Assembly: GCF_019649055.1 (NCBI RefSeq)
Contig: NW_026570325.1
Location: forward strand, 186,001-250,000
Reading direction: 5' to 3'
From: Paramacrobiotus metropolitanus
Lineage: Eukaryota; Tardigrada; Eutardigrada; Parachela; Macrobiotidae
DNA length: 64,000 nt
Part shown: positions 3,602 through 60,530 of the stretch, piece by piece
How the letters are laid out: each line of letters opens with the position of its first letter
How positions within the stretch are numbered: the first letter of the stretch is position 1
Notes under the pieces: generated by a model
The model's input: only the letters and a program-made list of their open reading frames with translations
The model's database searches: none
Told to the model about the DNA's origin: nothing
Program-made: the position numbers and the translations under genes

Positions 3602-6600
3602 TTACAGGAAATCTTTCCATGGAACGAGCGCTAGGTCACTCCAAGTTATGTGGGTGGCGTTATCATCATGCATCTCCTGTCGTTTGTAGAAAAGTTCTTT
3701 AACTGGTATTGTTGACTTCGGAGAAGGCTTCTGACCAAGCTTTTTGTGATAATATGTGGCCAAAACAAAATTTAAAATTGACTTCGGTAACATAGGAAGT
3801 TTATCCGCTTGATCTTTTTTGTGATATTCCGCCGGGTCTGAAATCATTTTGCTAAAAGCAGCCGGGTCTGGACTCATTTTGCTAAAAGCATCTTTCAGAG
3901 TCTGTAAATATAGATAGTAAAAATCAATTTAGGATCGTTTTGGTGGCGACATGAGACAATAACTTCAGTTTGGATCTACAGGGGATTTCATACGTTGCTT
4001 TTGCAGAGGACTATCTATACCTGCGCCTGTGCATATTGCAATTAAGACGGCCAGCAGTCAGAATTTTAGCTGCATATTCATTCGTTATAACCTTCATCAT
4101 TAGTTATAACCTTAAAACACATCTGCTTTCCTGTGTTTTAATCGGCTAGTCAGCCAGTACGCATTGACAATAAGCCTGCGCAGATTTACACTAATTAAAA
4201 TGAATAAGTTTTAAACATTGAAAAAAACCCATAATTCATATTGTCAGTACGTGGACGCAGTGTACCCAAAACAGCCGCTGCATTTTCCCCTAACTACTGC
4301 TTAAACGTTGTCTGAGAAAAGCCGTAGAACGATGTCTGCTTTCCTTCTTCTACCTATAACATCTTTCCTGTTACTTCTTTTAGTACTTTGTAGAAGCAGG
4401 GGTGATACGTTACGCTCGCAAATTGCATTGTCCACTGATGCGACCTACCGGGGACTGATATTCTGAATGGTTCGCAACCTTATCAATGATTCGGTAATAT
4501 GCATAGAACCAGTCCTGGTGTTGATCGTTTCTGATCCGTGCAGGAAGGCCAGAATTTTTCTCTGCAATCGCTTTCAGAATGTAAGAAGGTAAAAACTCCA
4601 GTTTAATAACTTGATTCGCATCCCCCTCCAGGTTCAAGCTGAAAGAAACCAAAAACACGTGTGCAACTGGACGGCTCGAGCAGTTAATGATTCTTACTCA
4701 TACTCATCGAGGACCTCTGCGAACAGTTTCTGGCGCGCCACAACATGGAATGGTCTTTCGAGGGCAAAATAATTTTGGTTATTCCGAGTTTCTCTCTTAT
4801 GGACTGCAGATTCAGGGGCCAGGATTAATAGGTTTCTCTTCGCCAGTTTTTCGGATAAAGACTTCATGGATAAGTCTTTATGAAATTGAACCTTCTCGTT
4901 TTTATCTTGTTGACCGCCTAGCGCACATCGATCGATGTCAGCGGACAATGGATTGTATTTCTTTAGTCCCCTCCACACTCGCCCGCTGCTGTACTTGGTG
5001 TAACTGGAAGACAGCTTGCTTAATACTGCCTGATTTCCTAGATAAGGACATCCGCTAACCCGCCCTTCCGGGTCTTGTTTTGGAGCATCGCAGTAGCCCC
5101 CCAAGAGAAGCAGGCGCGTTGCATCGAAAATGTCATTATCTTCATAGCATTTGAGCATCAGTGCGTCGACAATATTTGGCTTTGTGCAGTCAGCCGACAC
5201 TTTCGGCTTTGCTGAGTTGCCAGCTGCCTGGCTCCACGAGATCAATCCCACGGCATCGTGATCTGCAAGTTAAAAATGAAAGTTCATGCTGCATAATTTC
5301 GAGTCATTTTGATCGCCTAAGCGAGAGACGGTTTGAACACGTTCTGTACCATGCAGTGCGAGATCATAAGGGTAGCCGATAAACAGACTATGCAACAACG
5401 GTGATTACAACAACAGATTATGCAAGAATGCAACAACAGACAACGGTGATTATGCAACAACAGACAACGGTGATTACAATTTGAAAACGTGCGATACGGT
5501 ATATGTGCTTCGTTTATATTTATTTTTTCGCTGGCTCACCATGAGAGCGGCTATTCTGACCACCGTTATCTGGATACTGGATTTTGTATCCGCAGATACA
5601 CCAAGTACGCCCTGCATATGCCCAGCTGAATTAGACTGACTAATCATTTCTAGTTTCCTCGTTTCATAAGGCGGTCAATTTCTTAATTTGTTTAATGAAT
5701 TATAAAGCTTTACATTTATTTGACCTTATCCTCAACTAAATACTTCAAGTACGAGCGATTTCCCTCAAGCTGTCTTTTATCCCGTGAAGCTCTTTTTCGC
5801 ATCTGATCATACCAGATCCTTAGCTCATTTTATCTGACAAAGGTTTCTCGAAGATCTCAGGGCTAAACATTTTACGTAAAAAAATTGGACTTCTTCTTCC
5901 GGAGCTACTGAAACAAATTAAATTTCTTTTTTCCTTTTCAGTTGAAATTCTATTCAACTTGAAAAAGATCGAGAATACAAACGCGACAAGAAAATCGGAA
6001 TGCCGGCTAGGCGCGAATGGTGTTTAGTACGACTGTACGACAGTACGAGTACTAATAATTGCTTGTTTAGCATAATCACATATTTCCAGTGAATTCATTA
6101 AAAAGTTCTATTTTGATTTTCGGTTTGGTTTAAACGCTCACGTTATTCGCTTCTGTAACCCTGACACTAAAAAACTGAGATTGTCAGTAGGAAACCAGGA
6201 TTTCTTTAAAAACTTTCACTGGGTTAAAGCTGGTGCATTAGTGTTGACCTTTGTACAATATAATTATGTACTGTAAATAAGAAATCGAAATTTTCTCTAC
6301 CGATAAACCTGGCAAGGGCGATGCTGCGCTTTGCTAACCAGATAAAACATCACGAACTCACAATTGCCAGTTAAATAAATACTGCTGCACGGTTAATCTA
6401 CTGCTACAAATTACATTAATCTTACGTATGCAAGTAAGGATCTCCTCCGGTAGCGGATCGCAAGCTTCCCGAAAATGCTTCAAAAATTGGATCAGCTCCA
6501 ACTCAGCTTTCTCGGGAATTAAATTATATTTTCCGATGATTTGCTCTACACAAATCCGTAAAGATTTGTAATTTTCTTCACGGAATCGTTCGAATATCTG

Positions 6601-9600
6601 TTTCAGATTCGAATCCAATATCGTATCAAACGAATCTGCAAAGTCTTGCATAACTTTTATGCAATCTTCTTGCATTGGGTCATATTCGCCGCGTATTCTT
6701 CTTAAAAGCGTTTCTGCCTTCTGGATTACAGCAGTATTTCTTCCAAAAAGCGTTGCCAGCAGCTCTTGAGTTTCGTTGGCGCCATTTTGGAGCTCGCTGT
6801 CACTTTCGCTGCGATATTGCAATAGTATTGTAACTTCGTTAATAACATATTCCGGAAGTGGATCCGTTTCTCTAGGCAGATTAAAGCACGCGAGGACAAC
6901 CGACTCGACGGTTTGTACGGTCAGTGGGGCGTCTTGAAAACCAAGGACAAATTCGGTGAAATCTTCATGGCGACGACCCTTAACTGCCTCGTTGGTCTGC
7001 GGCATCGGTGTTTTTGAATTTTCAGTAATTTCTTCAACGGCTTTCTGAACGAGCTTCTGGCTCTTAGTGCGGTACGTTTCCATGATTTTCGTCAAATTTG
7101 TCAGATGTTCCTCCTGCATTTCCACGCCATTTTGACATAGTTCCTGTGTGTGCCATTTTGCAGTGATCCTTGTATCATTTGCTTGGCGAATTCTTTTAAG
7201 GAATTCCAATAGTTCGCCGCTTTGTTCGCCGGTCGTTTTCAAAAGCTTACTGATATCCACCATAGTCATTTCGGCGAACTGGTCTCGCTTCTTCCGAAGT
7301 GTTTTAAGCTGTGCTTTGGCAGATGCTACAGCATGTGTTCCTAATTCGTCTTCAACTATGTTGTATCTCTTCAGTATTTCTTCTATGACCTTCGCTGCCT
7401 GTTCGATCAACAAATCTTTTCGCTCCGACGTTCGTTTAAGGTATTCCGTGATAGCTACGGTGGCTAAAACTGCATTCACATGCCGGTAAAAATGCTTGGG
7501 GAGTATCGGCCATATCAGATCAGCATTTGCCGAAAGGCTCCATTTTTCAGATTCTTCTTGGGGGCGCTCACTGGCATCCACAATCAGGCACATTCGGCTA
7601 GCTTGGATATTTATGGCTCGCAGGTGGTTATCGTTAAGCGGGGTACCCTGCACAAAGTTCAGATTTCATTTTCATTCATCATCCAGAAACGAAGTTTAGT
7701 CAACCGAACACTTTCATACAATTTGAGCAACCGGCACCCACGGGCCAAGCTGCGTTTTAAATGCTGATCGCTCCCTAATTTGCTTGCACTATCCAGAAAT
7801 TTTGAGTATGTTTACACACTGTACTACAGATAATTTTCCTATAGAGCTTGTTCCCTCGGATTAAATATTTTGTAAGTGTTATTTCGATTTTTATTCGAAG
7901 CCTCTTTTCTGAGTTTTTTTGAATTAACAGTAGTTTACTTTTTCACGTTCAGAATACTTCAGTAGGTGTGAGGCCGGCTGCTGAGATATGCCGATGTTTT
8001 GTAAGCATGGTATGCCCCTAGAAGCCGCCGCCACCGCCTACATAATAGTGATAATAGTACGTAGTTCTATTAGGCCATTGCCGCTCTACAAAGGTACAGA
8101 CTGACTTGTATATTTACCGTCCTACCGGGTTACAAATTATTTGATGGTATACCAGCTGTACTACAGACACTCCTGAAGGCATGACAGAGACCAGAGATCA
8201 GTTTCCGCGGCCGTTCTGAGCGATAATGAGATTTTTACAGGAAAATATGTAATATTATGGAGATACCCACCTTGACTGGATATATATTAGGAAAATCGCG
8301 AAGACTGTCCCATTCTGTAGCCAGAAAGTCGGGTTCTCCCAGAATGACCACAACTGGCGGAACTGCGTGGACACTTCGTAGCGGCTTAATAAAGTTGACT
8401 AGTCCAATAGGCGTTGCGCTTCGATCCGAGATAACACAGATCACAACATGTTGTTCTAGTGTGGACAATTCACTGTCTTTCTCGTCAGCACACTGTACCA
8501 TTTACCCAGTATGTGATTAGGGATGACAAAACGGGACGGCATAAATTGCAGATTATCGCAACATACCTTTAGCGGAATGGCTCCTTTGGTCGATTGGTAA
8601 TGCCGATACTGTCCCGTTGGATCCCATATTTCATCTTTATTTTCCTCCATTCTAAATAAGGAGGGACAGACATAATTTTCATGGGGGATTGCGAAGGCAA
8701 AATGCAGCCGCGTAATCATCACTTACGATGCAGTCATCGTTTGGAGTTGCGGAATCATGTTTTTGGTGCAATTTGTGCACACAGTGACAGATTCCGGATC
8801 ACATGCCAAGCCTAGCTGTCGTTTTTTATTATCAAAGCAATTCTCGCAGAGTGTTCTTTGCAGCAGATTAACAGAGGCGGATGTAATAAAGAACAGCTTG
8901 GCACCGTCTTTCAAAATAAGATTTTCTCGGGGATACAGATGAAATATTTCCTCTTGCAGTACAGCGAATAAAATACCCTTCCCTTTGAACTTAGCCTGCA
9001 ACATACAGAAAGTGCTTGTGCAGCGTGCGACGTTCTTCACTTCAGAAAAACAACAGTGGCCTCACCTCTATGTCTTTGTAGAGTTGTATCTTCTTAGGAC
9101 TTGGATTCAGAGGCTCATGTACGACGATCGTGGTTTCATTTTGGACTTGTTGGAGAGGTGTTTCTTCGGCAGGCGTGTTTTGTACCTCCGGCGGACAGCA
9201 CCGCATTTGTACACTTTGTGCGTAGCGCAATACTTGTTCTCTAACCCTTGCTAAAAAAGGGCGTGGAGGTTCGAGGAATTTTTCCATGGGTGTGTGATAT
9301 CCAATACACCGGATGGTTTGTCGACCGGACCGACTAAGCCGCTTCTCGGCACCTTCCGCAAGTGATGGTCTAAGCTCTGCATAGGAATTCCGCAACGTTT
9401 TCAGGAAGCGCCACAACTTTCTTAGGCTTACTCTATTTTTTTTCTTGGGTGGTTTTGAGAACCAGTCGTAAACAACCTGCGATATTCCCGGTGCAAAATA
9501 ACGTTGAGCTAGAAGTGAAAACTGAATTTCAGCTGTGCAGACGATGCCATCAACTTGAAGAGACGGATCTGCGCTAGCTTTTCTCCAGTTTGGTATGTCA

Positions 9601-12600
9601 TAAAATCGTTCCTGCAAGTGGAAAAATGTTATATATGGCAAAAGTGGGTAACCGACAAACCGATGCCCAAAGGTCATCATCCGTAAATTTTGCGTGTCCA
9701 ATTATTTGCGCAGACATATTTCGGAGTGTCTTCGCCCTGCCGCCCGGCCGATTAAATCAGACTATGAGTCGACCCCGGGAGTAAAAATTCTATAACCTCA
9801 GTAATTATTTCTATGCAAATACGCCATTTGTAAAAACCGAAAACGGACTTTTAAATACCGAAGACTTGCTGACGACCTTTTTGCTAACCGACAAAATGTT
9901 TACCCGATAATTTGTAAAACACACAAAATCTCCTGATGACAATCCGACGATTAATAGAACCGTGCACAAAATGTAGAAATACTGAGAAAATCTAAGGAAA
10001 TCTGAGAAAATTCAGGAATACCAAGTATAAGACATTACCAAACCCACGAAAACCGAAGGAAGCCTAAACCACCGTAGAAATACAAGGACCAGGGCTTAAA
10101 AAACTAATGGACTTGAAGTTTTTTGCGAAGGTTAAAACAACACGAGAACCTCGATTTCCTGTTCGTGTTTCCATAAATGAGCACGTGACTATCCGGGCTA
10201 ATTGTTAATCATTGTCTGATTGTGATCATAAACTACGGAAACGGGCCAAATCTGCTTGCACGATCATTTTGGCGTTTCCCATATTTTACAGTAGCGTAAC
10301 GGCAGATGCCAACGCCATCTTTTACGCTCTGCCCGTAAGCCGGACACTTTTGTCGCACGCTTGTTTTTGGTCAATTAAAATACGCCGTAATCGTTAAAGC
10401 ATTTAGCTGATTACTCTATTTTAGACTTACAAGAAAACAACTAAAATCACGAACCTTGTTTTCATATAGAAGAACCTTGACGATGACCCTAACTTTAGGG
10501 TGGTATCGTTTCAGTGCATGAACACGCAGGAAATTGCAGTGGTCCTCGGCGGTAAAGTTTGGCGCACTTTCATTAGCAAAAAAGAACGCACACTGGCAGT
10601 GCTTTGAAATGACGTTTTTCAGGTCCTGTTTCTTGAAAACTGAACCTGACACAATGGTCAGGATATCCCGATACTTTCCTGCCACTGTATTCATTTCCTC
10701 TGTTGCGTCGTCTGATGCTTCTGGCCTATAAAATCATGAAAACATAGTCCAATATTGTTTTTTATGTTAAGGTTACCGCCTAGCATTCCTATAAAACCAG
10801 GACGGGCACAGCTGGAGAATTTTGAACGTACTCTAGAAGAACTGCAATGTTTTCACCAGGGTTTGTTGATCGGAAGGTGCCTGCAAACCTCTCCACGGCA
10901 TCCGGATTTATGGAACCCAGCAATGCGACATATCTACAAAGCTCTACCGCTAAGTAATTTCGATAAATTTTACAAACAGCACCTTATAGTATGTACTTTG
11001 TATCTCTTTTTCGGTACACGGTGTCAAATGCGCGAATTTTTAAAATTCTTGGTAACTGCTTCAGCATTTCCGGTATGATTTGCACGAGAAATATCTGCAA
11101 ATTATTATTTTTAGTGACTGTCGCCGGCATCGTTATCATTTCCCCAGCTCACCAGGGTGATGGCTTGAACAATGTACACGGAAATCTTTGCGGTTGTCGT
11201 TTCAAGTTGCGCAGAAGTCACATCCAGAAAAACCAGTTTGCCATAGAGAAACGTCACGACCTTGCCGTATGACAAATCTTTTTGTCCGTTGTAAGATTGT
11301 AGCCAGAAATCGCCCAGAATTTCCATCTAAGACGGAAAATAATTATAATTTATTATTATGCAACATTCTCAAGAGTTTTTTATAGGGCAGACAACCTTGG
11401 AGACGAATTCAGACTAAAACTTCATAGCATTTCTTCCAACATATACGTAATTAGAAAATTGTCAAATTTGAGACTAATCGTCTTGTAATCACATTCATGT
11501 CCTTAGGTTAGTTGTATAATGTGTTGAGGAGATCGGATAGAAGTAACGTGCACAGCAAACCCATTCAAACTTTTACGACACATGTACCATACATGTACAA
11601 ACTACAAACCATGTGGTTCTACAAAGACATGTGTAATACAACGCAGCAAAAACTGCGTAAAAGTGCGCGAAAGCGCACTTTTAAACAGTTTTTGCGTTCA
11701 GTCATGTACTGTACTCGTACATAGCCATCGTGTACAAATCGAGTGATTTAAATTCCTTTCGTAAAGGGTGCTTCAAATTTAAGCTCGATGATTGCCCTTA
11801 GAAAATAGCCACTACACTACGACTATCGCAATGATAAACTTAATTTTTCCCATGAATGATTATATTTACAGTAATATGATAAATTCGACTCACAAATTCT
11901 TCGATTTTTACGACAAATATTTTATGCTCATACGATAATAATATTAAATTCTGACGTGCATCCGCCATGCCAAATGCTCGTACAGAGTCTGGAAGTAAAA
12001 AGTGTGGAGTGATGGGCCGGGATATGGAGGTTAGTTATACCATGAATGACTGAACCTGAATTTTCCGCTGTGCCTAAATCACCGCGCCGGGCTTGTACAT
12101 ATGCTGAATTAAATTGGCGTCATCGCCGTCATGTACAGATGTTCCCCGCCATTTTCTCTTAAAGCAGCATTACTAACCAGCTGAATCCATGCTGCACAGC
12201 TCAAGAAGCAACAGGCAATCCATGTTATCCTCCTCATGACAGTGCCAATCTTTAGTGGCAACTTCGGAAAAATGCGTATTATTTCATCGCAAAACCAAAT
12301 TAAGCAAAACAGTCGAAGGAACTGTAAGCCTGCAGAGCAAATTAACATTATCTGTTAATTTTGACAAATCTATCAGTAACAGCCCTAATACTCTTACTTA
12401 TGACCGCCACTTTCCATAAGCCAGGCATGGTGTAATCGACACAAGCAACAATACATATTTCATAAAACACCAGCGGCAAATTAGCCATGTTGGAAACGAA
12501 TTCCCAGTCCCGCAAAAGGTTAAAAACACTGGCTGCTAATCGTGCTGGCTTGCAAAAACCTCGGAAGAACCGTGAATAACCTCTTCCCGTCGGAATAAAA

Positions 12601-13520
12601 GGCACCGAGCCATCATTCCAGCATTTGAACTAAAGCATTGGTACGATATTTTGTTAGATCTATTTTATTTCCGTTTTTCTTAAACGCTAACTAACAAGTT
12701 GTAAATGATAGCCGACCTTGACGGGCTTAAATACGAGAAGCATCAGTAAGGCGATATTGAGAGCGAAATCGGTCCTAGCCGCTTTCCGGTCTTCGGTAGG
12801 TAGAGGTGCGTGCCACTGATGGTTTAATTTCCTACGAGCAGGGCGTGCTTAGTGTCATCGATTATAAAAACGGATTAAAGATTTTTCTTTGCGACGAAAT
12901 AGGACATACCCATCAGTCCAAAACATGTATGGTCCAAAAAAATTGTTTGACAGTGAGGTTATGCTTAGAGCGAAAACGAATAATCCCCGCAAGAAAGGAA
13001 TCGGTGACAGCAAGAAATGCCGGTAGACTCGTTTAAGGAAAACGTAAATGTACCACGGAACTCTAATAACTGCGTGGAATAATATGAAAATTCCAACTCC
13101 GAAAAGACTGGCGAAGCAAAAACCGTAATATGTCCACGGAACTTTAGCCAGGGATGCTGCAACCCTGCAAACATAAACGCGAGCAAGTTACAAATTATAT
13201 TTCAGTAGCCGCTGTTATAGAGTAGTATAGTTTTGTGTTTGCGTTCGGTTATTCCGGTATGCCGGCAAATACCGTAAGCTGCGCTACACACTACCATAAT
13301 ATTATTCTATTATGGGATTTATTAGAAATTTGGTTACGATAAACTGATTGGAGCATTGCCGCGCTTAAGAAGCATAATAATTAGGAACGGATCTTTACGT
13401 TGTATTGGCCAGTGTCGTGTTATCCAATGTTATGAGCCAGCATAGTCCAGGTTGTCCAAAACTGCACGTTCCGTTGTCAGTATCCGGAGATGTTGCAAGC
13501 GATACATTGGCCACAGCCAT
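3602..13520 (-). CDS. slo-like: Slo1/BK-like channel A, complete, 17 exons
   Basis: Exons: 13520-13399, 13164-12910, 12831-12717, 12629-12398, 12329-12178, 11326-11153, 11094-10997, 10933-10832, 10725-10455, 9611-9066, 8995-8727, 8651-8567, 8492-8271, 7647-6426, 5262-4698, 4638-4449, 3901-3602. All junctions are GT-AG and keep phase, giving one open frame of 1639 codons plus TAA. The order follows BK channels: glycosylatable N-terminus (1-41), S0 (about 52-75), S1-S4 (about 105-255), S5/pore/S6 (262-370), RCK1 (383-780), RCK2 (about 790-1540). Diagnostic stretches include GTPLNDNHLRAIN (BK: GTPLSRADLRAVN) and FAPGISQ (BK: LAPGFST). Departures from BK are the absent TVGYGD filter, a weakened S4, no visible acidic calcium bowl, and an insert of about 400 residues. 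It is divergent from kinase gene A, with starts 942 bp apart. The plasma-membrane location is inferred from family membership. Family assignment is firm; conductance is unknown. Confidence 0.85.
4698..5262 (-). CDS. slo-like: Channel A exon 15: C-terminal half of RCK2
   Basis: HHDAVGLISW...VDALMLKCYEDNDIFDATRLLLLGG matches BK [34 protein letters not shown], and NLLILAPES...YFALERPF matches the last RCK2 strands. Exons 16 and 17 (4638-4449, 3901-3602) finish the protein. Exon 17 begins with a near-duplicated FSKM-SDPA motif seen once in B. Confidence 0.75.
5384..5479. repeat. Short tandem repeat in channel A intron 14
   Basis: About three imperfect copies of a 24-27 nt unit built on atgcaacaacagacaacgg/tgatt are visible, in the 1.16 kb intron between exons 15 and 14. 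The rest of that intron shows nothing recognisable. Confidence 0.8.
6426..7647 (-). CDS. slo-like: Channel A exon 14: RCK2 strand plus about 370-residue helical insert
   Basis: A single 1222-nt exon. It opens with GTPLNDNHLRAINIQASRMCL, the BK RCK2 GTPLSRADLRAVN segment, and continues into about 370 residues rich in Lys, Glu, Leu and Gln with heptad-like spacing, so probably helical or coiled coil. The position corresponds to the BK linker that carries the calcium bowl; no run of aspartates is present. The insert ends DPLPEEILTCIR, and a similar DPLPE(Y/H) motif occurs earlier in it (DPLPEYVIN), which hints at an internal repeat. It is conserved as one exon in B (28276-29485). Confidence 0.75.
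8271..8492 (-). CDS. slo-like: Channel A exon 13: start of RCK2
   Basis: Encodes LEQHVVICVISD...GLVNFIKPLR...VVILGEPDFLATEWDSL, the counterpart of BK SGHVVVCIFGD...GLRNLVMPLR...IVFVGSIEYLKREWETL. Exon 12 (8651-8567) supplies the preceding DPTGQYRHYQ segment (BK: DSTGMFHWCA). Confidence 0.8.
8727..8995 (-). CDS. slo-like: Channel A exon 11: end of RCK1, CxxC motif
   Basis: Encodes FHLYPRENLILKDGAKLFFITSASV, matching BK [25 protein letters not shown], followed by CENC where BK has the haem-linked CKACH motif. The cysteines are kept and the histidine is lost. Confidence 0.7.
9066..9611 (-). CDS. slo-like: Channel A exon 10: late RCK1 plus lineage-specific tail
   Basis: Begins ERFYDIPNW...GIVCTAEIQFSLLAQRYFAPGISQ, the counterpart of BK NIPSWDWKQGDD...[20 protein letters not shown]. 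It then has a basic, variable region and ends KKIQLYKDIE, conserved with copy B. Length differs between copies (546 nt in A, 504 in B), so the middle is fast-evolving. Confidence 0.75.
10455..10933 (-). CDS. slo-like: Channel A exons 8-9: RCK1 core
   Basis: Exons 10933-10832 and 10725-10455 encode YVALLGSINPDAVERF...VLLE and YRDILTIVSGSVFKKQDL...CAFFFANESAPNF...EDHCNFLRV. This matches the BK RCK1 order (VVCGHITLESV, VEFYQGSVLN, ACLILANKYC, DAEDASNIMRV). The BK calcium-site residue D367 appears conserved as the Asp of AED; the D362 position is not acidic. Confidence 0.75.
11153..11326 (-). CDS. slo-like: Channel A exon 6: pore helix and degenerate filter
   Basis: Encodes residues 293-350, including DLSYGKVVTFLYGKLV, then FLDVTS at 325-330, then AQLETTTAK and the start of S6. 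An ungapped alignment to BK (LSYWTCVYFLIVTMS, TVGYGD, VYCETVLGR) puts FLDVTS exactly on the TVGYGD selectivity filter. Both filter glycines are gone. The exon is 174 nt (58 codons) in all three copies. Confidence 0.85.
11646..11695. repeat. Hairpin palindrome in channel A intron 5
   Basis: gcaaaaactg...aagtgcgc, a gaaa loop, then gcgcactt...cagtttttgc form an almost perfect inverted repeat of 50 nt. It lies in the 851-nt intron 11327-12177, which otherwise holds no coding signal. Confidence 0.75.
12178..12329 (-). CDS. slo-like: Channel A exon 5: S4-S5
   Basis: Encodes LQFLRLFCLIWFCDEII followed by RRITWIACCFLSCAAWIQL, aligned to BK GLRFLRALRLM and S5. Of the three S4 arginines of BK (R207, R210, R213 in human numbering) only the middle one is kept; the others are Q and C. 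The exon is 152 nt in all three units. Confidence 0.8.
12910..13164 (-). CDS. slo-like: Channel A exon 2: S0 and S1
   Basis: After the acceptor tttgcag it encodes SLAKVPWTYYGFC, a hydrophobic S0 segment, a basic loop, then a second hydrophobic stretch (LFVFALSITSLSNNF) corresponding to BK S1. The exon is 255 nt in both A and B, phase 2 in and out. Confidence 0.75.
13399..13520 (-). CDS. slo-like: Channel A exon 1: extracellular N-terminus
   Basis: Starts MAVANVSLAT and contains three N-glycosylation sequons (NVS, NGT, NTT) and a CSFGQPGLCWLI block shared with copy B (GLCWLI is also in C). It is followed by the phase-2 donor gtaaag. BK channels have an extracellular N-terminus before S0, which fits. 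The ATG was chosen because it begins the block conserved with unit B (ATG 34923). Confidence 0.75.
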
Positions 13521-14462: not shown

Positions 14463-14853
14463 ATGTCATCGGTATACGCAGTGGGTTTTCAGTATAAATT
14501 CTCTTCACCGAATTCAACAACGTATTCTGTTAACGTCGAACGAAAAGATAATACATATCTTCCGAAAAAAGATGATTTAAAATTATCTGGTGACCATCTC
14601 GAAAAATCTGGATTCGATGGACTGGAAAATGCGCTGGCGCTGCCGCAGAAAGCTGAGCTAACGACAATAGCGTCAGATCGCGCGGATGCCCAGAACGAAA
14701 TTCAGGCTTTACGTGCCGCACTTCTCCCCTTAGTCACCGCGTTCGCCAAAGAACATCACAATGTCAACGTACAGCGATATTACGGCGTTGATTATACTTC
14801 TGGAAAAGCTGGACTAACTAGGACCTGTTATATTCTAGCAGAACACTGCCCAG
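14463..14853 (+). CDS. Kinase A exon 1: N-lobe of D1
   Basis: Starts MSSVYAVGFQYKF and ends RYYGVDY...CYILAEHCPG, which lines up with kinase strands beta4-beta5 and the hinge. The phase-1 donor gtaaag follows the hinge glycine codon's first base. The beta3 lysine position appears to be Thr. Copy B (35583-35973) has exactly the same length, 391 nt. Confidence 0.75.
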
Positions 14854-17800
14854 GTAAAGTTTGTAAAAATAGCGCCGGTTAAAAAAATGTCCAGTTATTT
14901 TGACATTCTTTACTTTAAGGTGCCTCTCCTTTAGAATAGCACGCGCACAAAGGAATCACATGTTCCATTTACGTTGCAATATTTTGTGTTGTACATGCAA
15001 AAGAATTTGGCTTTGCACAGATCTCGTTCAAAACAGTGCAACCACTACTTAAAATGTGTTCCGTAATTAAGTCTTCATTTTCTGCTCAGATTCTTTCAAA
15101 ATAAAAAGCTGATCCTCCTGAAATCAAAGCCATGTCACCCTTCCAGACCGAGCAGTTCAAATATGTCACGCGTCAGCAACCTCTAAAATTTACTAGCACG
15201 ACATTATGGCGCTTTTTGCCCCTTAATTTGGTCACTTGTTTCAACCTAGGTTCCTATTTGCCGTACTTTGGACTCGGAGCGGCCTATGACTAATTGCTAT
15301 AATCAATACACCTGCCACCTGTGGCACGTTTCGCACCAAAGAAAAAAAGTGAATCGTTTTTTCTCTCCTTGTAGTCACAGTAGACACTTGTATACAGGCT
15401 GTAGACACCCTGTAGACCTATCGGTAGTCACCTGGTTTCTTAGGACGTATGCACAGTGTCTAAAACGGTGTCTACAGGTTGCCTACGGATGTCTACCGCT
15501 GTATAGAAGCAGCCCTTCTTAGGTTCAGCTCGATACTCTGCCTGTATACACCGCCGTAGACACAGCGGTAGACATACTGTAGTCTGTAGTCACCTGGTTT
15601 CTTAGGTTTCTTAGGTTTTCTTAGGATGTATACAGGTTGTCTACAGGGTGTCTACAGGTGACTACCGGTGTATACAGGCAGAGTATCGAGCTGAACCTAA
15701 GAAAAACTGCCTGTATACAGGGGTAGACATCCGTAGACAGCCCGTAGACACCACTGTAGACATACTATAGTCACCTGGTTTCATAGGTTTTCTTAGGATG
15801 TATACAGGTTGTCTACAGGGTGTCTACAGGTTGTCTACAGATGACTACCGTGAATACAAGAAGGAAAAAAACGTTCCAGTTTTTTTCTTTGGTACGAAAC
15901 GTTCCATATATAAAACTTTGCCAACCGCCACGACGGCAACGGCTAAGAAACCTAAAAACACTAGATAACCTAAGAAAGTTAAGGACCTAAGAATCATAGA
16001 AATCTAATATGTACGGTAAAAAACGCTAGTTCGACTTCATGACGGGTCGACATCGTGTCTGGTCGACTTAGTGGCGATTGGGGAATTTTCGTCGACGAAA
16101 TGGCGATTCACTGGTATGACGGCAGTATTGGGTATCACTGTATCAGTAACTATATCTACAGAACCACTAAAGCGCTGATAAAAATCAGCGCCTTATTTCC
16201 AAAATGCACTTCAGCATAACGGGATTTTATGTGTTGCGGTTCTGACCGAAGCGTAAGCGAAGGTCGTGTTACGAGTATAAATGTGGCTATATAACTATCC
16301 GGGATGGTAGGGAATAGTGGAAGATGGCACTAACACTAACCAACTATACTCGCAACAAAACAGCAGCTAGTGGCAACTCTTTACTGTTGAAAAGTCCAAA
16401 TGAACAGAGTGCATTTTCTGGCAGCATCGCAGTGCTGCTTATATACTCTTATCATCAGGAACAGAAGATCAAATAAGCATAAAAACAATGAAGAAAGATC
16501 TAGAGCGTTATTTAACAATGGGGTGTGGCTCGGGTGTGATAATAGAAAATAAGCACACAATGATGAATCATATGCAACTAGTGCATTGATCCTTATTGTG
16601 TGATGGCAACAATTAAAGGGCAGCTATTAATAACTATTAGATGCTCTATTTTAAACGCTTCGATTGTCATATAATTATGCAGCAATATTTTTCCTATAAC
16701 AGTCGAGTAAGTATAAGAAAAGACTGAAAAGTGTCCGTTTGTCGGACACAACAACCCCTTGTATTGAATAGTCGTATGGTGAGCCTAGCGAAATACTTGT
16801 ATTTAGGTTGCTGGGACCGACGGACGGTCATCACTAGTTACAGCTCTATCGCACCAAGTGTGGACACTTTTTCTCAAAAATCACTAAAGGCCAGGAGTCG
16901 ACAAATTTATAATTATTTTATTTTGATATGGTTGCTGCATGTGTTCAGCATGTTTTTCATTTTGGTTTGCCCTGCTGAAAGCGTATTCTAATTGACTGCG
17001 ATATAAAAACCAAAACCGACCGGTTTAAAAATGTGGCTCGACCCATTGACAGTGGTTGCCATCTTCCGACTTAAAATTTGTTTGAAAATTTCACTGATGC
17101 CGCAAAGCAAAATTAATACGTTTGGGCTGTTTCGCAACCAAGGCTCTTGCGATATATGCAGGATACCTATCGAATTCCATGAAGCCTGCGTGACCTTTGC
17201 AAAGTTAAGACGGGCCCCGTTAAATACGGGGATGACCTCCTTTGCGCCTTCGCCGAACAGCCGCCGAATGTCGCAAGCACCCGTTCTTGATAAAATCTCA
17301 TTCAGAAGGTACTGGGCGTCCTTTTTAAGCTTTTCGTCCGCACAGTAAGCCCGAGGCATCTCGTTCCAGCAAGATTAAGCAGCAGTCTTAGCTTTTTTTA
17401 GTCGCCGCTTTAATGGTTTTTTCTACCATCCGTCCGGCACTTATACCTCCTCGCCTGTGTTGTTGATATTTGTCAACACTCTAAAATAAACTTACGTAAC
17501 CCACGACTGGTTCATGGAAGTTATCAGTTCGAGGTCACTCAGCTCCATGTGCTAGGCAACCGCATTTCTCGGTATGTCCTTTTTACCATAGAAGTCTATG
17601 GGAGAACCACTTTGTCCCGGGATCACCGCAAACAGTGATTATGCAGGATGCTTCTGATTGCGCGTAACAGACACCTTGTGGATCATTCAATAACTTTCAA
17701 AAAACTGCACGCAAAAATCTTAAGTGGTGATACTTTTCCAGGAGCATTCATAAGCAGAAACAAATGACCGCTACCCCCTCCTCTAAAATACCGCTTGTCT

Positions 17801-20800
17801 CCCTACTGGCACATCAAAAGACTTTGGCTTTGATGTTTCTGGATCCGCAATAAAAAACTACACTAGAATAGTGCAAAATAATAAACAAAATGACGTACCA
17901 AATTATTTTTAAATTTGTTTTATGCAACTGTCCACACTTGGTGCGATAGAGCTGTATATGCGTTGTGAGCATATACGTCCCTCGTGCATTTAGTTGCGGT
18001 GACCGACCGATGGAAACCGTATTTTTCATATTCACTTGATCATAGAGCAGTTTCGCTACAATTTGGTCGAATATGATTAATATAACTGTTATTTGAAGGA
18101 ATGCCTTTGGATGAACTGATGCGGTCAGTAACTGTTGACGCGGATACGAAAATAAATGATTTCGCAGTTATTATATACACAAGACAAATTCTGAAAGGAT
18201 TGAACTTCCTCCATGAAAACCACATTATTCACCGCGACATCAAAGGATCAAACGTGATGGTAAACGAAGCCACTAGCACGGTAAAAATAAAGGGATTGCT
18301 GATGGCTAAACACTTTTCGGGAGACTCCACACCGTCGAACTGCTTAGAAAATGCTGCCGGCACGGTGCCGTTCTTATCACCGGAAATGGCATCTCTCTCT
18401 GCAAAACGGTCGAATCAGCACACGTCGGTTGGTAGAAAAACCGATATCTGGAGCTTGGGGTGCACCGTCATACAAATGTTGCAGCAAGGCACACCGCCAC
18501 GTTTAGTTAGAGATAAGAGCGGTGATACCGTAGTTCCGACTGCTTCCACCCATAACTTCAAGGACATGCATTACTACTTCGGTGTCGGGTATCGGCCCCA
18601 GTATCCTACAGCTGATATCTGCGGTCATGGGTGTACGGAAAGCTGCAGTTTGGTTACAACGGATGTGATTGCCTTCCTTAATAAATGTCTAGAAAAGGAT
18701 CCTGTAAATCGGCCATTGTGTACTGCGCTTCTCCAGATGAAATACTTCGCTCGCACCATGCCGAACCACAAGAGCAGAGAAATGCAGCGGTGTGTAGTAA
18801 GGCGGTATGAAATTGATTCAGTAGCGCAAGTTGAAGACACAGAAGAAGCCAAAAGAAATAATACTATGATGAATTACCTTAAAAAATTTGTGAATCTTAC
18901 CATTAGCAAAGAGACACGGGATGAACTGGATTTACTGAAAACGACAACAAATCTTCCAGGCACAGTCAAAGACCACAAAATCCCGTACACAGTTACTTTC
19001 ATTTCTCCAGCTGAATCGCCGAGCGGTAACAGTAAATTTTTAATGGCAAACAAAGGAAGCGTCTTCGAGAAACTCACACACTCAAGCGTTCTCACGTCGG
19101 AGCACATTATCAAACATCTTGCCGCCGTACTCACCCTCTGGCCTTGAAATCCGGCTTTTCACCGAGAGTGAAGGTTTGGCTTATAATTATTTTGTACAGT
19201 AATTGGGTGTGCATGAAATTCTTTAAATTTAATAGAACAAATTTATGGTATTCCTTCTAGGCAACTTTGTGCCTTTTAGCGAATACTTGACAAGTCGTAA
19301 GTTCCAGAAGTCATTCATTCCTCACTTCACAAGCCAGATTCTTGAAGGACTAGTCGTATTACATGACCTTCACATCATCCACAAAGACATTCGATGTTCG
19401 AACATTCTTGTACAGCCAATCGACGGTCATGCAGCCAGGTACATTCTAAAGATTGCTCACTTCGAGAAAGCGTCGCAGGAAAAAGATGACAGCGCTCGAG
19501 AAGTTTGTCCGGAGGGATCATCACGCTTCATATCGCCAGAAATGATGAATCTGATGATTCCCGGCAGCAGTTCGGAACAAAATAAAATCACCACGGCTAC
19601 GGATGTATTCAGTTTAGGCTGTACCATAATCGAGATGTATAAGCGATCCCCACCGGAATGGGTATAACGGAATAAAATGAGCGGGAAAAACGAAAGATTT
19701 ATGTTCAAATCAGATGCAAACAGTCTTGATTTTTTCTCTAATTTGTGGAAGATGCTCGATCTGCAAGCTGAACCTGATGTCGCCGACATCACTGACAATG
19801 CCGATGCCCGTAATTTTGTGGAAGCTTGCTTTATACCAGGAAATAAAAGACCAACATGCAAGGAACTGTTGGAGCATTTATTCATTGTAGGATTCTCCGT
19901 TGGAAGCAGTTGCCAGTACTCCGTTCACGGTACTGGAAGGAACGCAGAAGGTCTCTCTGGAATAGTGTATAAAGCAAATATCACCGATCGCGGGAATTTT
20001 ACTGAAGACATTGCAGCTGTTAAAATATTTCATTTGCGTTTAGCGCAACCGTTGTTTGCTCTAAGCGGAAACTCAACGCTACGTCAACGGTGCGAAAATC
20101 TTCTTCAGCTTAGACATCGTAACATTGTCGGGTACCATAAAGTGACCGTAAGAAACCAGCGAGAACAAGATTTGGTTACTTTTGAGATTATGATGGACTG
20201 TTGCTCAGGTGGGTGAGGAACCTGCCAGGAAAACCACATTTACTCTTCTAATAAATAAGTGTAAAAGCGTTATTTTATAGGAGATCTTAATCAGCATCTA
20301 ATACAACTGGACAATGAGAGGCACCGATTGGGCAAGGCAACATGTATTCGCTATGCGATGGAGCTCGCAGCTGGGCTAGATTATCTGCACCAAAAAAATA
20401 TTATCCATGGAAATCTGTCTCCGACAAAAGTGCTCTACCGAAGTCACGCAAACGAGGCTGTAACAGTTGTAATTAGTGGTTTGGATTATACGATGCTATG
20501 TCAAAATAACGACAATGTGGAAAACACAAGCAGGTTTCAATGTCCAGTCCGGTATATGCCACCAGAAGCGCTGCGAATGTCCATCAAAAGTCCATCAGAC
20601 GAAATCGAACTCAGGAGCGATATCTGGAGCTTGGGATGTATCATTATAACTCTTGTTACATATGATATCAAAGGCTACGAAAGACAGTTAGTCAAGGGAA
20701 CAGAACGAGCTGGAGCAGGAAACGATATTCCGAATTCAATTTATGCAGTGCGGATTTTAGATGGATATGTTCCATTTCTGGCTGAACCTATTTCTATGGA

Positions 20801-23800
20801 CTTGATTAGTTGCATTGAGCCGTGTGTTCGTGCTGCCGTAATCGAGCGCTGCAGCGCGAAAGCTTTGTTACAGCTGTTGTCGCAAGTTGATACTTCTGAT
20901 GCTGGAGGAGTGGATTCTACTCATCATTCTAGCCCAACATTTCCATCGTGCGAGGAACATCTACCGGAGCCAACGGCTGCTCCGATCAGTGCGGCTGTTT
21001 TGGAATCGTCGGCAGCGCCTGATTACACGAGTGAAGAAAACATGGATTCCCTAGCAGAAGTCTTAGGTGTACGGTGTCAGTATCATTATGCAGATAGCTA
21101 CTCGGATTATGTTGGAAGAGGTTCAACTGGTACGATTTTCAAAGCAATGGTCACGGAAAGAGGGGATTACACCGGAAAACAAACTGTCGCTGTGAAAGTA
21201 GTTCGTTTCTCTGAAGACCGGGTATCCTTTGACTTGGCAAAGATGCGCAGAAGATTCCGGTCACTTATTTCTCTCAGACATGATAACCTCGTTGTGTATC
21301 ATAGAATATCTGTTAACCGATTCCCCTATGGATGGACAGTGGAAATCATGATGGACTATTATTCAGGTATATGCCGACAACTGCATTATAGTAATTATTA
21401 TGGCTTAACTGGAAACACCGCTAGGTCTATTGAACTCTATTCCGATTTCTGCTTCTTCAGGTGGAAATTTTTCAAATTATTTACAAACCTGCAAGGAAAA
21501 CGAGCAGTGGCTGCAGTCAGCAACGGTTATCAGATACATGGTACAGTTAGCCAGAGGACTAACAGTTTTGCACAGCAGCAATATTATACATGGAAATTTA
21601 AGTCTTCTCAATATTCTAATCAGTCACGAAGAAAATAATCGGCTAAAGCTTTCGATCGGCAGCCTGGATGGAGCGGTCCAAATGCAGTCAAGCATAACAC
21701 ATTCGGTAGATTGTGAAGATATCCGCGGGACAATACGTTTTATGTCTCCGGAGATGCTTACACGCTTCGTTAACTTTGGCTACGAGGGCGGAATCGGACG
21801 GAAAACCGATACCTTCAGTTTAGGTTGCATTTTTGCAGTAATGGCCAACCATATGCCTTGTGGTCATAAACCGAAGTTGTATAATCGAACTACAGGAGAA
21901 ACCGTGGAAGTAGACGCAAGCTTCCGTGACCTTCGTTACACAAGTTTCGTCCTTGATGGATACGTACCGCATGTTGATGAATCTATACCACCACGTTTGG
22001 CTGAAATTATACAAAGCTGTTTGAGTGTTAGCGCTGAAGAAAGAATTTCTGCAGATGGCCTCCTCAGAAAACTTATATTGGTAAGCATGAAGCGCAAAGT
22101 GCAAACCTACAATATTATGTTTTTACAAAGGTATACGTACGTTTAATTCGGTGTAAAAACAGGTCACAGGAGACATTCGTAAATCTGCCCGACACTAAAG
22201 ACAAAGGAGCAAAATAATGCAAGTATAAAAGCCAAAATCCTCTCAGGTCATACTAACTTGATCACTGGTTGAGTGGCGAAAACGCACAGCGCTTATAAGT
22301 AATACTCGCCCAGACCCCATCGGGTATAATATGATTGTGCACCACTGCACTCGAAAGTTTGGCTTTAGGCCTATCTTGTATCAGGAAACACTGAGTACGT
22401 TCCGTTTCTTATCGGTTCACAATGGACGTCAAAATTGATTTTATGCGTGGTTGGTATAAGCCTAACCCGATTTTGTGGTAGACTGGCAGTAATCTACATA
22501 GTACATACCGGGTACATATACCTATACATACATATAATCTTACCATAACATACAATCAGCGCCAACTACAGGTAGCTCGGAACGTTGATCGGATCTGTAT
22601 TTCCATACACTCGCACGATGCGCACTCGGCTGCAGCCAATAAATCGGTTTAAGGCTTTAGGAATTAGGAGTAGGGTTGGTTTTTGTATGCAGATTCACTG
22701 TACAACGGACAGACGTGAGGTGAAACGGCCTGTAGCTGTTCTGAAATTCAAGAATGGTTTAAGATTTCCTTGGAGTTCCCTATGTGCGTTCACGTCCTTC
22801 ATATAAGTACTCCGCTGCGCAATAATTATGAGCTTTTCAAATTCAAAGTGAAGCTGATTCGATACAGCAATTCTACTCACCTGTGAGGTAGCTTCGCGAA
22901 TTGTATCTGTGGGTGTGGTACTGCATACAGCTACCTTGGACTGGAGCAATCGTTGCGAATGTACGAGTACTGTAGTTTCGTTTTGATGCAGGGCTGCGCC
23001 ATCATGTTGATAGCAAGCTATGAAGGCATTTAAATAACATTAAGACGCCAGTATTTAGCAACTGTACTCTGCAGATTCAAGAAGATTTCAGCCTTGGGCT
23101 GCTACCATCAGCATTGGTATGTACTTCGGAGACAACTGATATGCTTTCACCAGCATATTGCGCACTAAGTGACCACTCGGTGACATCCGAGAGCCAGGAA
23201 GAAATACCGGTAATTTCGCTGGTAGCGACTGCGTATACGGTTACAGCAGCAATGATTGGACTGGAAAAGGCTCATTCGGCTTCGTCTACAAAGCAAAAAT
23301 TAAAGACAAAAGAAACTATATAAGGGACGAAATCGTTGCCGTTAAAGTGGCGCACTTGAATACATCAGTCCTCCCATGGAATATTAAAGATCGTACCGTA
23401 CTGCTGGCAAAATTCAATAGATTGATCCAACTTAATCATAGCCATTTGGTTAAATACCATGCAGTTAAAATGTTACAGTCTTCTAAAGGAACGAGGTTGG
23501 AGTTCCTAATGGATTACTACAACGGTATGTCGAAGCCGTAGAAACTTCTCAGTGTCGATTTCGTAACAGTCTCATCTTATAAGCATACGGGGGAATGTGA
23601 ATAGCTTACCCAGGCAATCCCTGTGGTTGCTGCCGTCAGCCGGCTGGAGTATGACGTTGCGGCATTGCGTATGGCTAAACCTAGCGCTGGACATAAGCAC
23701 CATGCATAGCCACAACCTCATAATCCGGCCGGCCAGCGGCAGTATGTAGTCGTACAGGAATTGCCTACTCTAGGCAGCAAAGCTGTTGCCATCCCCTCGA

Positions 23801-24780
23801 ATGCGCTAACGGTCAGTTTATATAATAATTATATGCTGTGTAAATGCTCACTTTATCTGCATCGAGCGCGGCGAGATGTTACCATTAAGCCTTCGTCAAG
23901 AGCATAAAATCTGTCAGACGCCACGAAGAGCGTACGTCACGCTTTTCCAATTCCACAAATCCAATACCATTTTCCAGTGGTACTGTCGCTCTCTCGGTGC
24001 GCTCATGTGGTTAAAAACCACCGCTAGTACATATCCTGTATATATGCTCAATATATATGCCCAGCATCTTTTGTTACAGATGATACTTTATCGGTGTTAC
24101 TGAGAAGGGTGAAGGATGTTGGGGGTGTGACACTACCTGAACAATCAGCCATTCAGTATGTAAGGGAAATTACGGACGGGTTGTGCTATTTGCACGGGAA
24201 GCCGTGGGAAATCGTACATGGAGACCTGAAACCGTCAAACGTCCTTGTAAGAAGTGGTAAAGGTCAGCATCGTACACTGTCGATTGGCGACCTCGACTCC
24301 TGTGTGGCATTAGATTCCCTTGACAAACGTACCAATATGCATGCAACGATCCGTTACATGTCACCGGAGATGATTCGATATTTCGAGAATGATTCAACAG
24401 AAACGATTGATCAGCTAACGGACATCTGGAGCCTTGGCTGCATTATAATAGAGCTAGTTAACTGCGTCATCAATCAGCACGATATGTGGCTAACAAAAGA
24501 CACGAAGTCTTCGGCAATTGTAGCCGGTGACCAGGTTTCCGACGTTGATTTTCCCAGATTGATAACGGACGGTTATACTCCATGGATTCGGGAATCATTA
24601 TTCACTTTACAAACTCAGCACTGGCTTGGACTTATTAAATCCTGCTTTCAAACTAAAAGTGCTAACAGAATTTCCGCTAAAGCCCTTTTGGAACAGCTGA
24701 GGAACAAAGAAGATAACTTGGGTCGCTCATCTCAAGACGACGACGGATACCAGTCACTATCAGTTCAGACGTTGACCTAA
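14463..24780 (+). CDS. Kinase chain gene A: five kinase-like domains, two lesions
   Basis: Exons: 14463-14853, 18099-19173, 19261-20208, 20281-21366, 21461-22080, then about 23195-23524 and 24080-24780. Domains D1-D5 resemble the MAP3K/STE11 group (HRDIKGSN, GTVPFLSPEM, GRKTDIWSLGC). D1 keeps HRD but lacks the VAIK lysine (AELTTIA) and DFG. D2 has HKD and AHFE. D3 and D4 have HGN and SGLD/GSLD but keep the N-lobe lysine. D5 keeps a glycine loop (GKGSFG), VAVK, HGDLKPSN and DLD. A 1-nt frameshift near 19110-19130 (copy B reads through) and an in-frame TAA at 19665-19667, where B has a tyrosine codon, interrupt the model. The D4-D5 link is inferred: no clear exon bridges 22081-23194, so D5 could be a separate gene. 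This could be a decaying gene or carry assembly errors. Confidence 0.7.
15322..15906. mobile_element. Foldback/MITE-like element with nested inverted repeats
   Basis: Imperfect terminal inverted repeats of about 55 nt (15322-15378 and 15850-15906) share acgtttcg-accaaagaaa. Inside lies a second, near-perfect 36-nt inverted pair (15518-15553 and 15666-15701; cttaggttcagctcgatact...) and many short gtagac/gtctac and cctaagaaa/tttcttagg units. It lies in the 3.2-kb first intron of kinase gene A. No coding capacity and no clear target-site duplication were seen. Confidence 0.75.
16988..17359 (-). other. Unexplained antisense open frame in kinase A intron 1
   Basis: A 123-codon frame starting MPRAYCADEKLKKDAQYLL lies opposite to kinase gene A. 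Composition looks protein-like at its N-terminal half, but I see no family, no paralogue in units B or C and no splice context. It may be a fragment of an inserted gene or chance. Confidence 0.2.
18099..19173 (+). CDS. Kinase A exon 2: C-lobe of D1 and N-lobe of D2
   Basis: After the acceptor tttgaag it reads GMPLDELM...GLNFLHENHIIHRDIKGSN...KIKGLLMAKHF...GTVPFLSPEM...GRKTDIWSLGC, then a linker with PYTVTFIS and a degenerate D2 N-lobe. The DFG position is GLL. Near 19110-19130 the frame slips by one relative to copy B; the downstream frame resumes LEIRLFTESEG before the phase-1 donor at 19174. As written the reading frame stops at a TGA at 19145-19147. Confidence 0.75.
19261..20208 (+). CDS. 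Kinase A exon 3: C-lobe of D2 and N-lobe of D3
   Basis: GNFVPFSEYL...IIHKDIRCSN...KIAHFEKAS...SRFISPEM...TDVFSLGCTIIEM belongs to D2. After the in-frame TAA at 19665 the same frame continues into D3's N-lobe, with AAVKIF (ATP-site lysine kept) and EIMMDCCSG at the hinge. Length 948 nt; copy B has 951. Confidence 0.75.
20281..21366 (+). CDS. Kinase A exon 4: C-lobe of D3 and N-lobe of D4
   Basis: GLDYLHQKNIIHGNLSPTK...VISGLDY replaces HRD and DFG; SDIWSLGC is kept. A Ser/Pro-rich linker of about 60 residues leads to the D4 N-lobe with GRGSTGT, VAVKVV and MMDYYSG at the hinge. The exon is intact. Confidence 0.8.
21461..22080 (+). CDS. Kinase A exon 5: C-lobe of D4
   Basis: GGNFSNYLQT...GLTVLHSSNIIHGNLS...IGSLDGA...IRFMSPEM...GRKTDTFSLGC. 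HRD is HGN and DFG is SLD, so catalysis is unlikely. It ends in phase 0 at the donor gtaagc; the frame runs on to a stop at 22146 if unspliced, which would make this the protein's C-terminus. Confidence 0.75.
22081..23194. other. Gap between D4 and D5
   Basis: Either a 1.1-kb intron or an intergenic spacer. No exon joining D4 to D5 in phase is obvious. A weak phase-0 acceptor (ccgagag) lies just before 23195, and a stronger cag acceptor ends at 23197 but would need phase 1. Confidence 0.4.
23195..24780 (+). CDS. D5: most kinase-like domain of unit A
   Basis: Exons about 23195-23524 and 24080-24780 are joined in phase 1 after MDYYNG. Visible motifs are GKGSFGFVYKAK (glycine loop), VAVKVA (ATP lysine), IVHGDLKPSN (catalytic Asp kept, Arg replaced by Gly), IGDLDS (metal-binding Asp kept in a DLD variant of DFG), IRYMSPEM and TDIWSLGC. 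It is the only domain in the window that keeps all the invariant Lys and Asp positions, so ATP binding and some activity are possible. It ends SLSVQTLT followed by TAA. Confidence 0.75.
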
Positions 24781-34400: not shown

Positions 34401-34923
34401 TAGTTTCCTGGGGAAATATTATCTAATTATTAAAATTGTTAGTGTTCCTTCAGGTAAAAATGAGAGCTTACTCATCAGTGGAAAACATGTATGGCCAAAA
34501 AAAGTTGATGGATAACGAGGCCATGCTTAGAGTGAATGCTAATAGTCCTCGTGTAAAAGGAATCGGCGAGAGAAATAAATGCCGGCAAATCAGTTTGAGC
34601 AAACCATAAATGTAGCGTGGAGTTCTAATGATTCCATGGATAATAATCAAGATTCCAATCCCGAACAGGCTGGCAAAACAGAAAGCGTAGTACGTCCACG
34701 GAATTCTGGCCAGGGATGTAGCAGTGCTACAAGCAAGACCCATTCAGGCAAGTTGGTAATTTCGTGTTTAAAATGTAGGTTAAATTCGAGTTCTTATAAT
34801 AACTTCTTACTATGTTGCGTTATCCAGTGTTATGAGCCAGCATAATCCAGGTTGCCCGAAACTACACGTTCCTTTGCCAGTATCCAACGATGTTCCGACT
34901 GATGTTAAGTTGTCCGGAGCCAT
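25490..34923 (-). CDS. slo-like: Slo1/BK-like channel B, complete, 17 exons
   Basis: Exons: 34923-34811, 34726-34472, 34407-34293, 34210-33979, 33916-33765, 32975-32802, 32736-32639, 32559-32458, 32368-32098, 31649-31146, 30419-30142, 30078-29994, 29920-29696, 29485-28276, 27635-27068, 26974-26785, 25738-25490. Every intron position and phase matches copy A, giving about 1606 codons without interruption. The N-terminus starts MAPDNLTSVG with an NLT sequon. The pore reads DLSYGRVVTFLYGKLV, FLDVTT, LQLQTTAAK. RCK1, the CxxC site (CSNC), RCK2, the helical insert and the GTPLSDNHLRAIN segment are all present. Two intact paralogues with the same unusual pore suggest selection to keep it. It is divergent from kinase gene B (659-bp gap). 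Confidence 0.85.
26109..26356. mobile_element. MITE-like element in channel B last intron
   Basis: Perfect 21-nt terminal inverted repeats (26109-26129 and 26336-26356; tgtaaccggcaaaaccgtcc) bound a 248-bp element with further ccggaaaa-gcgtccgg inverted units inside. No target-site duplication is clear. The end resembles that of the 51.1-kb element (gtagccggcagaaa). Confidence 0.75.
28276..29485 (-). CDS. slo-like: Channel B exon 14: helical RCK2 insert
   Basis: A 1210-nt exon parallel to the A insert. It starts GTPLSDNHLRAINVQASRM and ends DPLPEEILTCIR. It is Glu/Lys/Leu-rich throughout, with an internal DPLPEHLIN motif. It is clearly diverged from A in the middle and conserved at both ends. 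Confidence 0.75.
32802..32975 (-). CDS. slo-like: Channel B exon 6: degenerate filter
   Basis: The same 58-codon exon as in A, with FLDVTT at the TVGYGD position. The pore-helix side (LSYG-VVTFLYGKLV) is nearly identical to A and C, more conserved than the flanking turret. Confidence 0.85.
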
Positions 34924-53291: not shown

Positions 53292-53465
53292 CAAAGTGAC
53301 AGCCTGAACAATGTAGACGGATATTTGAGCGGTTACTGTTTCCAGTTGGGTGGATGTAACATCAAGAAAAACCAGTTTCCCATACAGAAAGGTCACAACT
53401 TTCCCGTATGTCAGGTTTGGTTGTCCATGGTAGGCGGATAACCACGGGTCACCAAGAGTTTCCAT
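53292..53465 (-). CDS. slo-like: Channel C exon with degenerate filter
   Basis: A 58-codon pore exon as in A and B; FLDVTS sits where TVGYGD is expected. The intron separating it from the S4-S5 exon (53466-53508) is only 43 nt. Confidence 0.8.
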
Positions 53466-60500: not shown

Positions 60501-60530
60501 GCTCAGGAAAAACAGAACAAACACCAGCCA
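57505..60530 (+). pseudogene. Kinase chain gene C, truncated, stop in exon 1
   Basis: Exons 57505-57919, 59074-60108 and 60168-about 60530. The true start is ATG 57505 (MASLYDVAY, matching MSSVYAVGF of A). An in-frame TAA follows at 57532-57534 where A and B continue. D1 is otherwise open: HQDIRGAN, KITGLN for DFG, GTVPFLSPEM, SDIWSFGC. D2 begins at 60168 with HKDIRCQN and AHFEKAT, reaches the EMQQLS segment and then loses similarity near 60500-60530, before the WSLGC-equivalent. D3 and later domains are absent. The gene is therefore interrupted at both ends. Confidence 0.75.

Follow-up and report, generated by a model that had tools for sequence, protein, structure and literature searches.

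What becomes of a BK-type channel whose potassium filter has been replaced? Few membrane-protein motifs are conserved as well as the TVGYG filter, and a preliminary description had noticed FLDVTS or FLDVTT in its place in three genes (A, B and C) of Paramacrobiotus metropolitanus. These genes lie on the stretch of 64,000 nucleotides analysed here, hereafter the window (contig NW_026570325.1, positions 186,001 to 250,000). The coordinates given for the three pore exons were right, and the genes are on the minus strand (Table 1). Between positions 3600 and 61000 the window holds three units in tandem, each about 20 kb long and containing one Slo-like and one kinase-like gene. Three long open frames (528, 280 and 215 aa) without a Pfam match lie at 61008-63979 on the minus strand.

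Table 1 Features of the Slo-like and kinase-like genes in the window (window positions)
Feature	Position	Strand	Remarks
Gene A	3602..13520	-	17 exons, 1654 aa, open frame; homology-guided splice model
Gene A exon holding most of RCK1	10431..10725	-	PF22614, E 4.7e-9, in open frame
Gene A pore exon	11153..11326	-	Pore helix, FLDVTS replacing TVGYGD, first part of S6
U14, first exon of kinase-like gene beside A	14463..14879	+	Part of kinase N-lobe
Further domains of kinase-like gene beside A	18101..24780	+	Five modelled catalytic loops, none followed by DFG
Gene B	25490..34923	-	17 exons, about 1620 aa, open; some exon ends chosen by hand
Gene B pore exon	32802..32975	-	FLDVTT
Kinase-like gene beside B	35583..43880	+	
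Gene C	44356..55864	-	Layout as in A and B; start uncertain
Gene C pore exon	53292..53465	-	FLDVTS
Kinase-like gene beside C	57508..60568	+	Partly modelled; one TAA in U14 match

The 58-codon pore exons read FLYGKLVFLDVTSAQLE (A), FLYGKLVFLDVTTLQLQ (B) and FLYGKLVFLDVTSTQLE (C), and that of gene A is bounded by the splice sites tttccgtcttag and gtgagctg. Compared with human Slo1 structures, the spliced S4-to-RCK1 stretch of gene A gave a best E of 7.9e-22; the match to Slo2 was far weaker (0.0012), and a Slo2 identity was rejected on this ground. This match, together with the place of the non-canonical clade beside Slo1 in the tree described below, bears out the BK-type identity proposed in the preliminary description. 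Gene A also aligned to human Slo1 with zero gaps from the pore helix into S6, FLDVTS standing opposite TVGYGD, as had been described. According to the models, proteins of the A/B/C type consist of S0-S6, RCK1, a variable linker, RCK2, a long C-terminal insert and a tail; the two RCK domains after S6 are seen in PF22614 matches in A and other copies as well as in the models. Two of the three genes are complete at more than 1600 codons, as claimed, and C is frameshifted, in a linker exon near 49,545; this gene may be decaying. In the version of B used for the tree and for dN/dS (1622 aa), GT is missing from one exon end; when GT/AG ends are chosen there, the frame is still open, and the alternative versions run from 1619 to 1629 aa. 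An interspersed repeat in introns of C (window 51024-52467) and of another copy, H (near C283:40400-40516), gives rise to spurious exons, with similar translations in both (GGCSM..HPPICR..., PSVSIDLTTTPLNAFR).

A genome search with the gene C pore returned 14 matches, and RCK and Ion_trans_2 family searches added canonical loci. In total 28 pore-bearing Slo loci were read, the three window loci included, and since the search was non-exhaustive all counts are lower bounds. Animals usually have few Slo genes; with at least 28 pore-bearing paralogues, the family is unusually large here. The same genome yields 34 Wnt matches, which mark it as that of an animal. The canonical filter (TVGYGD or TVGFGD) is present at 13 loci, among them L018, which is clearly orthologous to Slo1 (E 1.4e-200 to Drosophila slowpoke) and has a Ca2+ bowl. 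The other 15 are non-canonical, with TVGYG or TVGFG in none. Eight are of the FLDVT type: A, B, C, D (C105), E (C46), F (C295), G (C103) and H (C283). Five are of the LDLSG type (L008, L009, L010, L011 and L013), and two, of the TIGxx type, have half-changed filters, ATIGSPD and STIGGSE (L012, C14:1305801-1309300; L022, C3:425501-428700). Twelve of the non-canonical paralogues go beyond the preliminary description, as does the head-to-head partner gene presented below. L023-L026 (C107:84-131 kb) form a canonical Slo cluster in which the filter starts an exon, the splice site being followed directly by STVGYGD or STVGFGD. Slo pieces were present at four extra places (C18, C107:93-100 kb, C84 and C323), where no pore was found in the stretches read. 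An RCK2 piece, GTALNRADLRSVTLNTCKMCVIIGS, is identical on two contigs (L030, C84:175501-182500; L031, C323:40001-47000), which are perhaps two haplotypes of one gene.

The preliminary description had itself raised the concern of a missed TVGYG exon. A six-frame motif scan of all 15 non-canonical loci, covering for 7 of them the stretch from the TM part to RCK1, found no missed K+-filter exon: of the 4 matches, one lay 5' of gene B (window 36,181, the sole K+-filter-like match across the whole window), three were on the opposite strand, and none was at a pore place.

We then placed the loci in a tree of 365 columns and 31 sequences (the 28 loci, Drosophila and Aplysia Slo1 and human Slo2). UFBoot values were 100 for the FLDVT genes, 100 for FLDVT plus LDLSG, 93 for all 15 non-canonical loci and 89 for these with Slo1 and L027; the labels were taken from the Newick string, as in the re-rooted print they are displaced by one branch. 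With 2.0 substitutions per site, the FLDVT branch is long. The simplest reading of this sequence tree is a single origin of the altered filter, with the TIGxx loci branching first.

The replacement follows a consistent pattern at pore positions T72, T75, G77 and G79 in KcsA numbering. All 13 LDxx loci (8 FLDVT and 5 LDLSG) have Lys/Arg at T72 and Asp at G77; the 15 other loci all have Thr or Ser at the T72 position and Gly at G77. The filter is changed from T75 to G79 in each of the 13, always with a large hydrophobic residue at T75, and both filter glycines are absent. Within the FLDVT pores, the Asp and YGK are invariant (8/8). The Lys/Arg-Asp change is one event on the tree, yet it has been retained while synonymous sites became saturated in many pairs. 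Judged by its residues, such a pore could be sealed by a Lys/Arg ring beside an Asp ring; by analogy with the plant channel CASTOR, the Asp ring could instead bind Ca2+.

With 8 sequences as input, AlphaFold2 modelled the 58-residue FLDVT pore exon as one helix spanning residues 20-57, with a block pLDDT of 82-89 from residue 21 and a mean pLDDT of 73 for this isolated monomer fragment. The canonical control of equal depth gave a helix (18-32), a loop over the filter (33-41) and the S6 helix (42-56), albeit as a weak model (mean pLDDT 60). As far as a monomer fragment taken by itself can show, the predictions favour loss of the filter loop in the FLDVT pore.

Selection was estimated by the NG86 method, dS being saturated, and no ratio available, in 6 of 11 pairs. 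Over the coding sequence, dN/dS was 0.172 for A-B (1390 codons), 0.138 for D-E (858) and 0.181 for G-H (374), and 0.071 and 0.051 for the canonical pairs L016-L020 and L025-L026; selection on the FLDVT pairs is clear, and weaker than in these canonical pairs. Along A-B, the values were 0.14 (TM), 0.08 (pore plus S6), 0.12 (RCK1), 0.32 (linker), 0.16 (RCK2 N-part), 0.07 (RCK2 core), 0.32 (insert) and 0.20 (tail), and the highest 60-codon window with a value reached 0.45, two windows being saturated. The pore therefore falls far from the value near 1 that the preliminary description had named as evidence against it, and its view of genes selected rather than decayed stands. Its further statement that the altered filter is more conserved than its surroundings holds in part: pore plus S6 is below the gene-wide value, but not uniquely so, as the RCK2 core is similar. 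Pooled pN/pS was 0.225 over 41 pore codons and 0.136 over 12 filter codons in the 8 FLDVT copies, and 0.326 and 0.202, respectively, in the 5 LDLSG copies. The K+ filter has been replaced in an old clade that is under selection. Decay of A and B was rejected, given their 17 open exons each and dN/dS far below 1. Decaying genes or a gene-model error are hardly credible as an explanation: they could account for the frameshift in C and the TAA in the U14 exon beside it, but the frames of A and B run open through all 17 exons, every pair with a computable dN/dS lies far below 1 and the motif scan found no missed filter exon.

The voltage and Ca2+ sensor residues are altered as well. S4 residues R207, R210 and R213 are Q, R and C in all six aligned FLDVT copies, and tblastn matches gave the same S4 pattern in G and H; S3 Asp186 is N, S or A in the six aligned copies. 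In RCK1, D362 is present in one of the eight FLDVT copies (G) and D367 in none, Asn taking its place in all eight. Of the FLDVT copies, only A and D were aligned over the acidic Ca2+ bowl of RCK2, and neither has it. The LDLSG and TIG loci, for their part, retain S3 Asp186 and the D367 Asp (7/7), with a partly acidic Ca2+ bowl in the 4/4 genes tested, so that part of the clade looks gated. Of the 12 canonical loci aligned, a single one has R213, and both RCK1 Asp are present in 6 of 13 canonical loci; sensor loss was therefore rejected as a hallmark of the altered clade, many canonical paralogues likewise being without R213 or the RCK1 Asp. The gene models had suggested that G and H lost their TM part, which proved wrong, as their S0-S5 exons lie further upstream.

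A kinase-like gene lies head-to-head with all eight FLDVT copies. From one modelled start codon to the other, the Slo-like and the kinase-like gene are separated by 942 bp at A and by 659 bp at B, and no significant shared promoter motif was found between these two intergenic stretches. The first exon of the kinase-like gene, U14, is matched at 10 places genome-wide, and at 8 of these it lies head-to-head with an FLDVT gene. For K1, the domain after U14, these 10 loci again gave the matches below E 1e-40, ten in all; the best of the others among the 116 listed stood at 2.3e-25. As for the other two U14 loci, C484 ends 277 bases past U14, so that its neighbour is unreadable, and at C287 the flanking 9.9 kb gave no match to Slo. 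An apparent absence of pairing at D was discarded, since the stretch first searched began past the partner. In a small control, U14, K1 and K3 had no match at E 1e-4 in the 8 kb flanks of the LDLSG locus L044 and of Slo1 L045 (0/2).

Partner genes were modelled for seven of the eight pairs (not D). By pattern, each contains one to five catalytic loops, of which 17/17 were without DFG within 40 residues; degenerate variants were KGL, TGL, AHF, SGL and GDL, and several loops retain HRD. The first domain is nearest to ASK1/MAP3K5 (E 3e-24), with KGL where ASK1 has DFG. From these motifs, the kinase-like domains would be without activity. The partners beside A and B (KA-KB) have a dN/dS of 0.17 over 690 well-aligned codons, and a TAG interrupts the K1 match in the partner gene beside E.

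The preliminary description had offered three functions for such a protein, namely passing another ion, acting as a dominant subunit, or serving as a non-conducting sensor. These are indistinguishable by sequence, and we lean towards the non-conducting one. Our favoured reading, held with somewhat less than even confidence, is a Slo-derived membrane scaffold that has given up K+ conduction and operates together with the kinase-like partner. It would be a Slo1-derived pseudo-channel in which the channel body (S0-S6, RCK1 and RCK2) is retained and K+ conduction is gone. The pore would be closed or collapsed, and the gained Lys/Arg and Asp may make a salt-bridge ring. The gating ring would act as a membrane-anchored scaffold or sensor relaying a signal to its partner, the protein of tandem ASK1-like domains lacking DFG; the two genes would be co-expressed from the short stretch between them and their products would act together. 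Channels with non-conducting roles have been reviewed (PMC9364710). Pointing towards a pseudo-channel are the change from T75 to G79 with Lys/Arg and Asp in every LDxx locus, the purifying selection, the one-helix model and the complete head-to-head pairing. Several observations pull the other way. A dead pore need not retain the Asp and YGK that are invariant in the FLDVT pores, and the intact order of hydrophobic segment, polar stretch and hydrophobic S6 fits a re-entrant loop. The predicted fold comes from a 58-residue monomer fragment and eight sequences, set against a weak control. Genes one to three kb apart can stay linked passively once a block has been duplicated, and the U14 locus at C287 has no Slo match within 9.9 kb. 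Because sensor loss is found in many canonical paralogues too, we rate the scaffold reading slightly lower than before, when it stood barely short of even.

That the protein is instead a working channel of other selectivity is unlikely, though the idea carries real weight. Four Asp side chains, level with the former G77, would then create a high-field ring like that of CASTOR, and the RCK gating ring would open a pore for Ca2+ or, without selectivity, for cations. The Asp is present in 13/13 LDxx loci, the S6 register and the PE at the end of S6 are retained, some sensor residues persist in the LDLSG and TIG loci, and CASTOR itself is an RCK-gated Ca2+ channel without TVGYG in which the filter change D265N abolished current (PMC6697748). 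Such a pore is harder to reconcile with a Lys/Arg five residues before the Asp in every LDxx pore, unfavourable for cations, with the large hydrophobic residue at T75, with the pore exon modelled as one helix, or with loss of the second RCK1 Asp in all eight FLDVT copies. A second serious rival, which we consider rather improbable, is that the proteins are silent or dominant-negative subunits, joining canonical Slo subunits to shut or tune their K+ current. The genome does offer 13 canonical loci, including the Slo1 orthologue, and the body and RCK domains are retained under selection, but the length of the FLDVT branch makes assembly with Slo1 doubtful and the pairing with a kinase-like gene would be left unexplained. 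We rate as similarly improbable a two-gene signalling module, in which a pseudo-channel and a DFG-less kinase-like chain have been inherited head-to-head and have multiplied to at least 8 copies. The Slo protein with its Lys/Asp pore might then be a membrane sensor or Ca2+-passing executor and its partner an adaptor or bait, for example in self/non-self or immune recognition.

Comparison with known systems places these genes nearest to Slo1/BK (KCNMA1, slowpoke), with which they share S0-S6, RCK1 and RCK2, the GDPW turret and the ungapped pore and S6 register. They differ in that FLDVT genes are without TVGYG, R213 (in the copies aligned) and the acidic bowl (A and D), have Asn for the second RCK1 Asp in 8/8, and carry a long C-terminal insert. 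The plant nuclear channels CASTOR/POLLUX/DMI1 also have an RCK gating ring below a TVGYG-less pore with a filter Asp, but their filter is ADS/AGNHA, they have no Slo body, and their Ca2+ selectivity was measured (PMC6697748). The kinship found for gene A is with Slo1, and the likeness to CASTOR lies in the filter Asp of the LDxx loci. Departures from the filter among Kv and CNBD channels are described as rare, isolated cases, with the metazoan CNG clade as the exception (PMC7576140). As here, a whole clade rather than a single gene departs from the K+ filter; CNG channels retain TIGE (PMC7576140), whereas the 13 LDxx loci are without both filter glycines. SLOB, the Drosophila slowpoke-binding protein, is likewise a kinase-like partner of a Slo channel, but kinase activity is reported for it in the review cited (PMC9364710); our candidate partner has tandem ASK1-like domains without DFG, and we infer the partnership from gene order. 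Tandem kinase-like domains also occur in wheat tandem-kinase resistance proteins, an analogy only, as these are plant proteins of disease resistance (PMC11153570, PMC11006675) and are not known to have a Slo partner.

Searches of an open-access literature collection brought up no description of a Slo clade lacking the filter. As kinship with Slo was found and the K+-channel filter was not, we regard these genes as a new form of known kin. A selected clade of 15 filter-less Slo paralogues shows that K+ selectivity can be lost while the BK body persists, and the TIGxx, LDLSG and FLDVT types provide intermediate forms for study. The constant pairing of FLDVT and kinase-like genes offers a concrete test case, whether the channel has become a scaffold for signalling or a cation pore of a new, RCK-gated kind.
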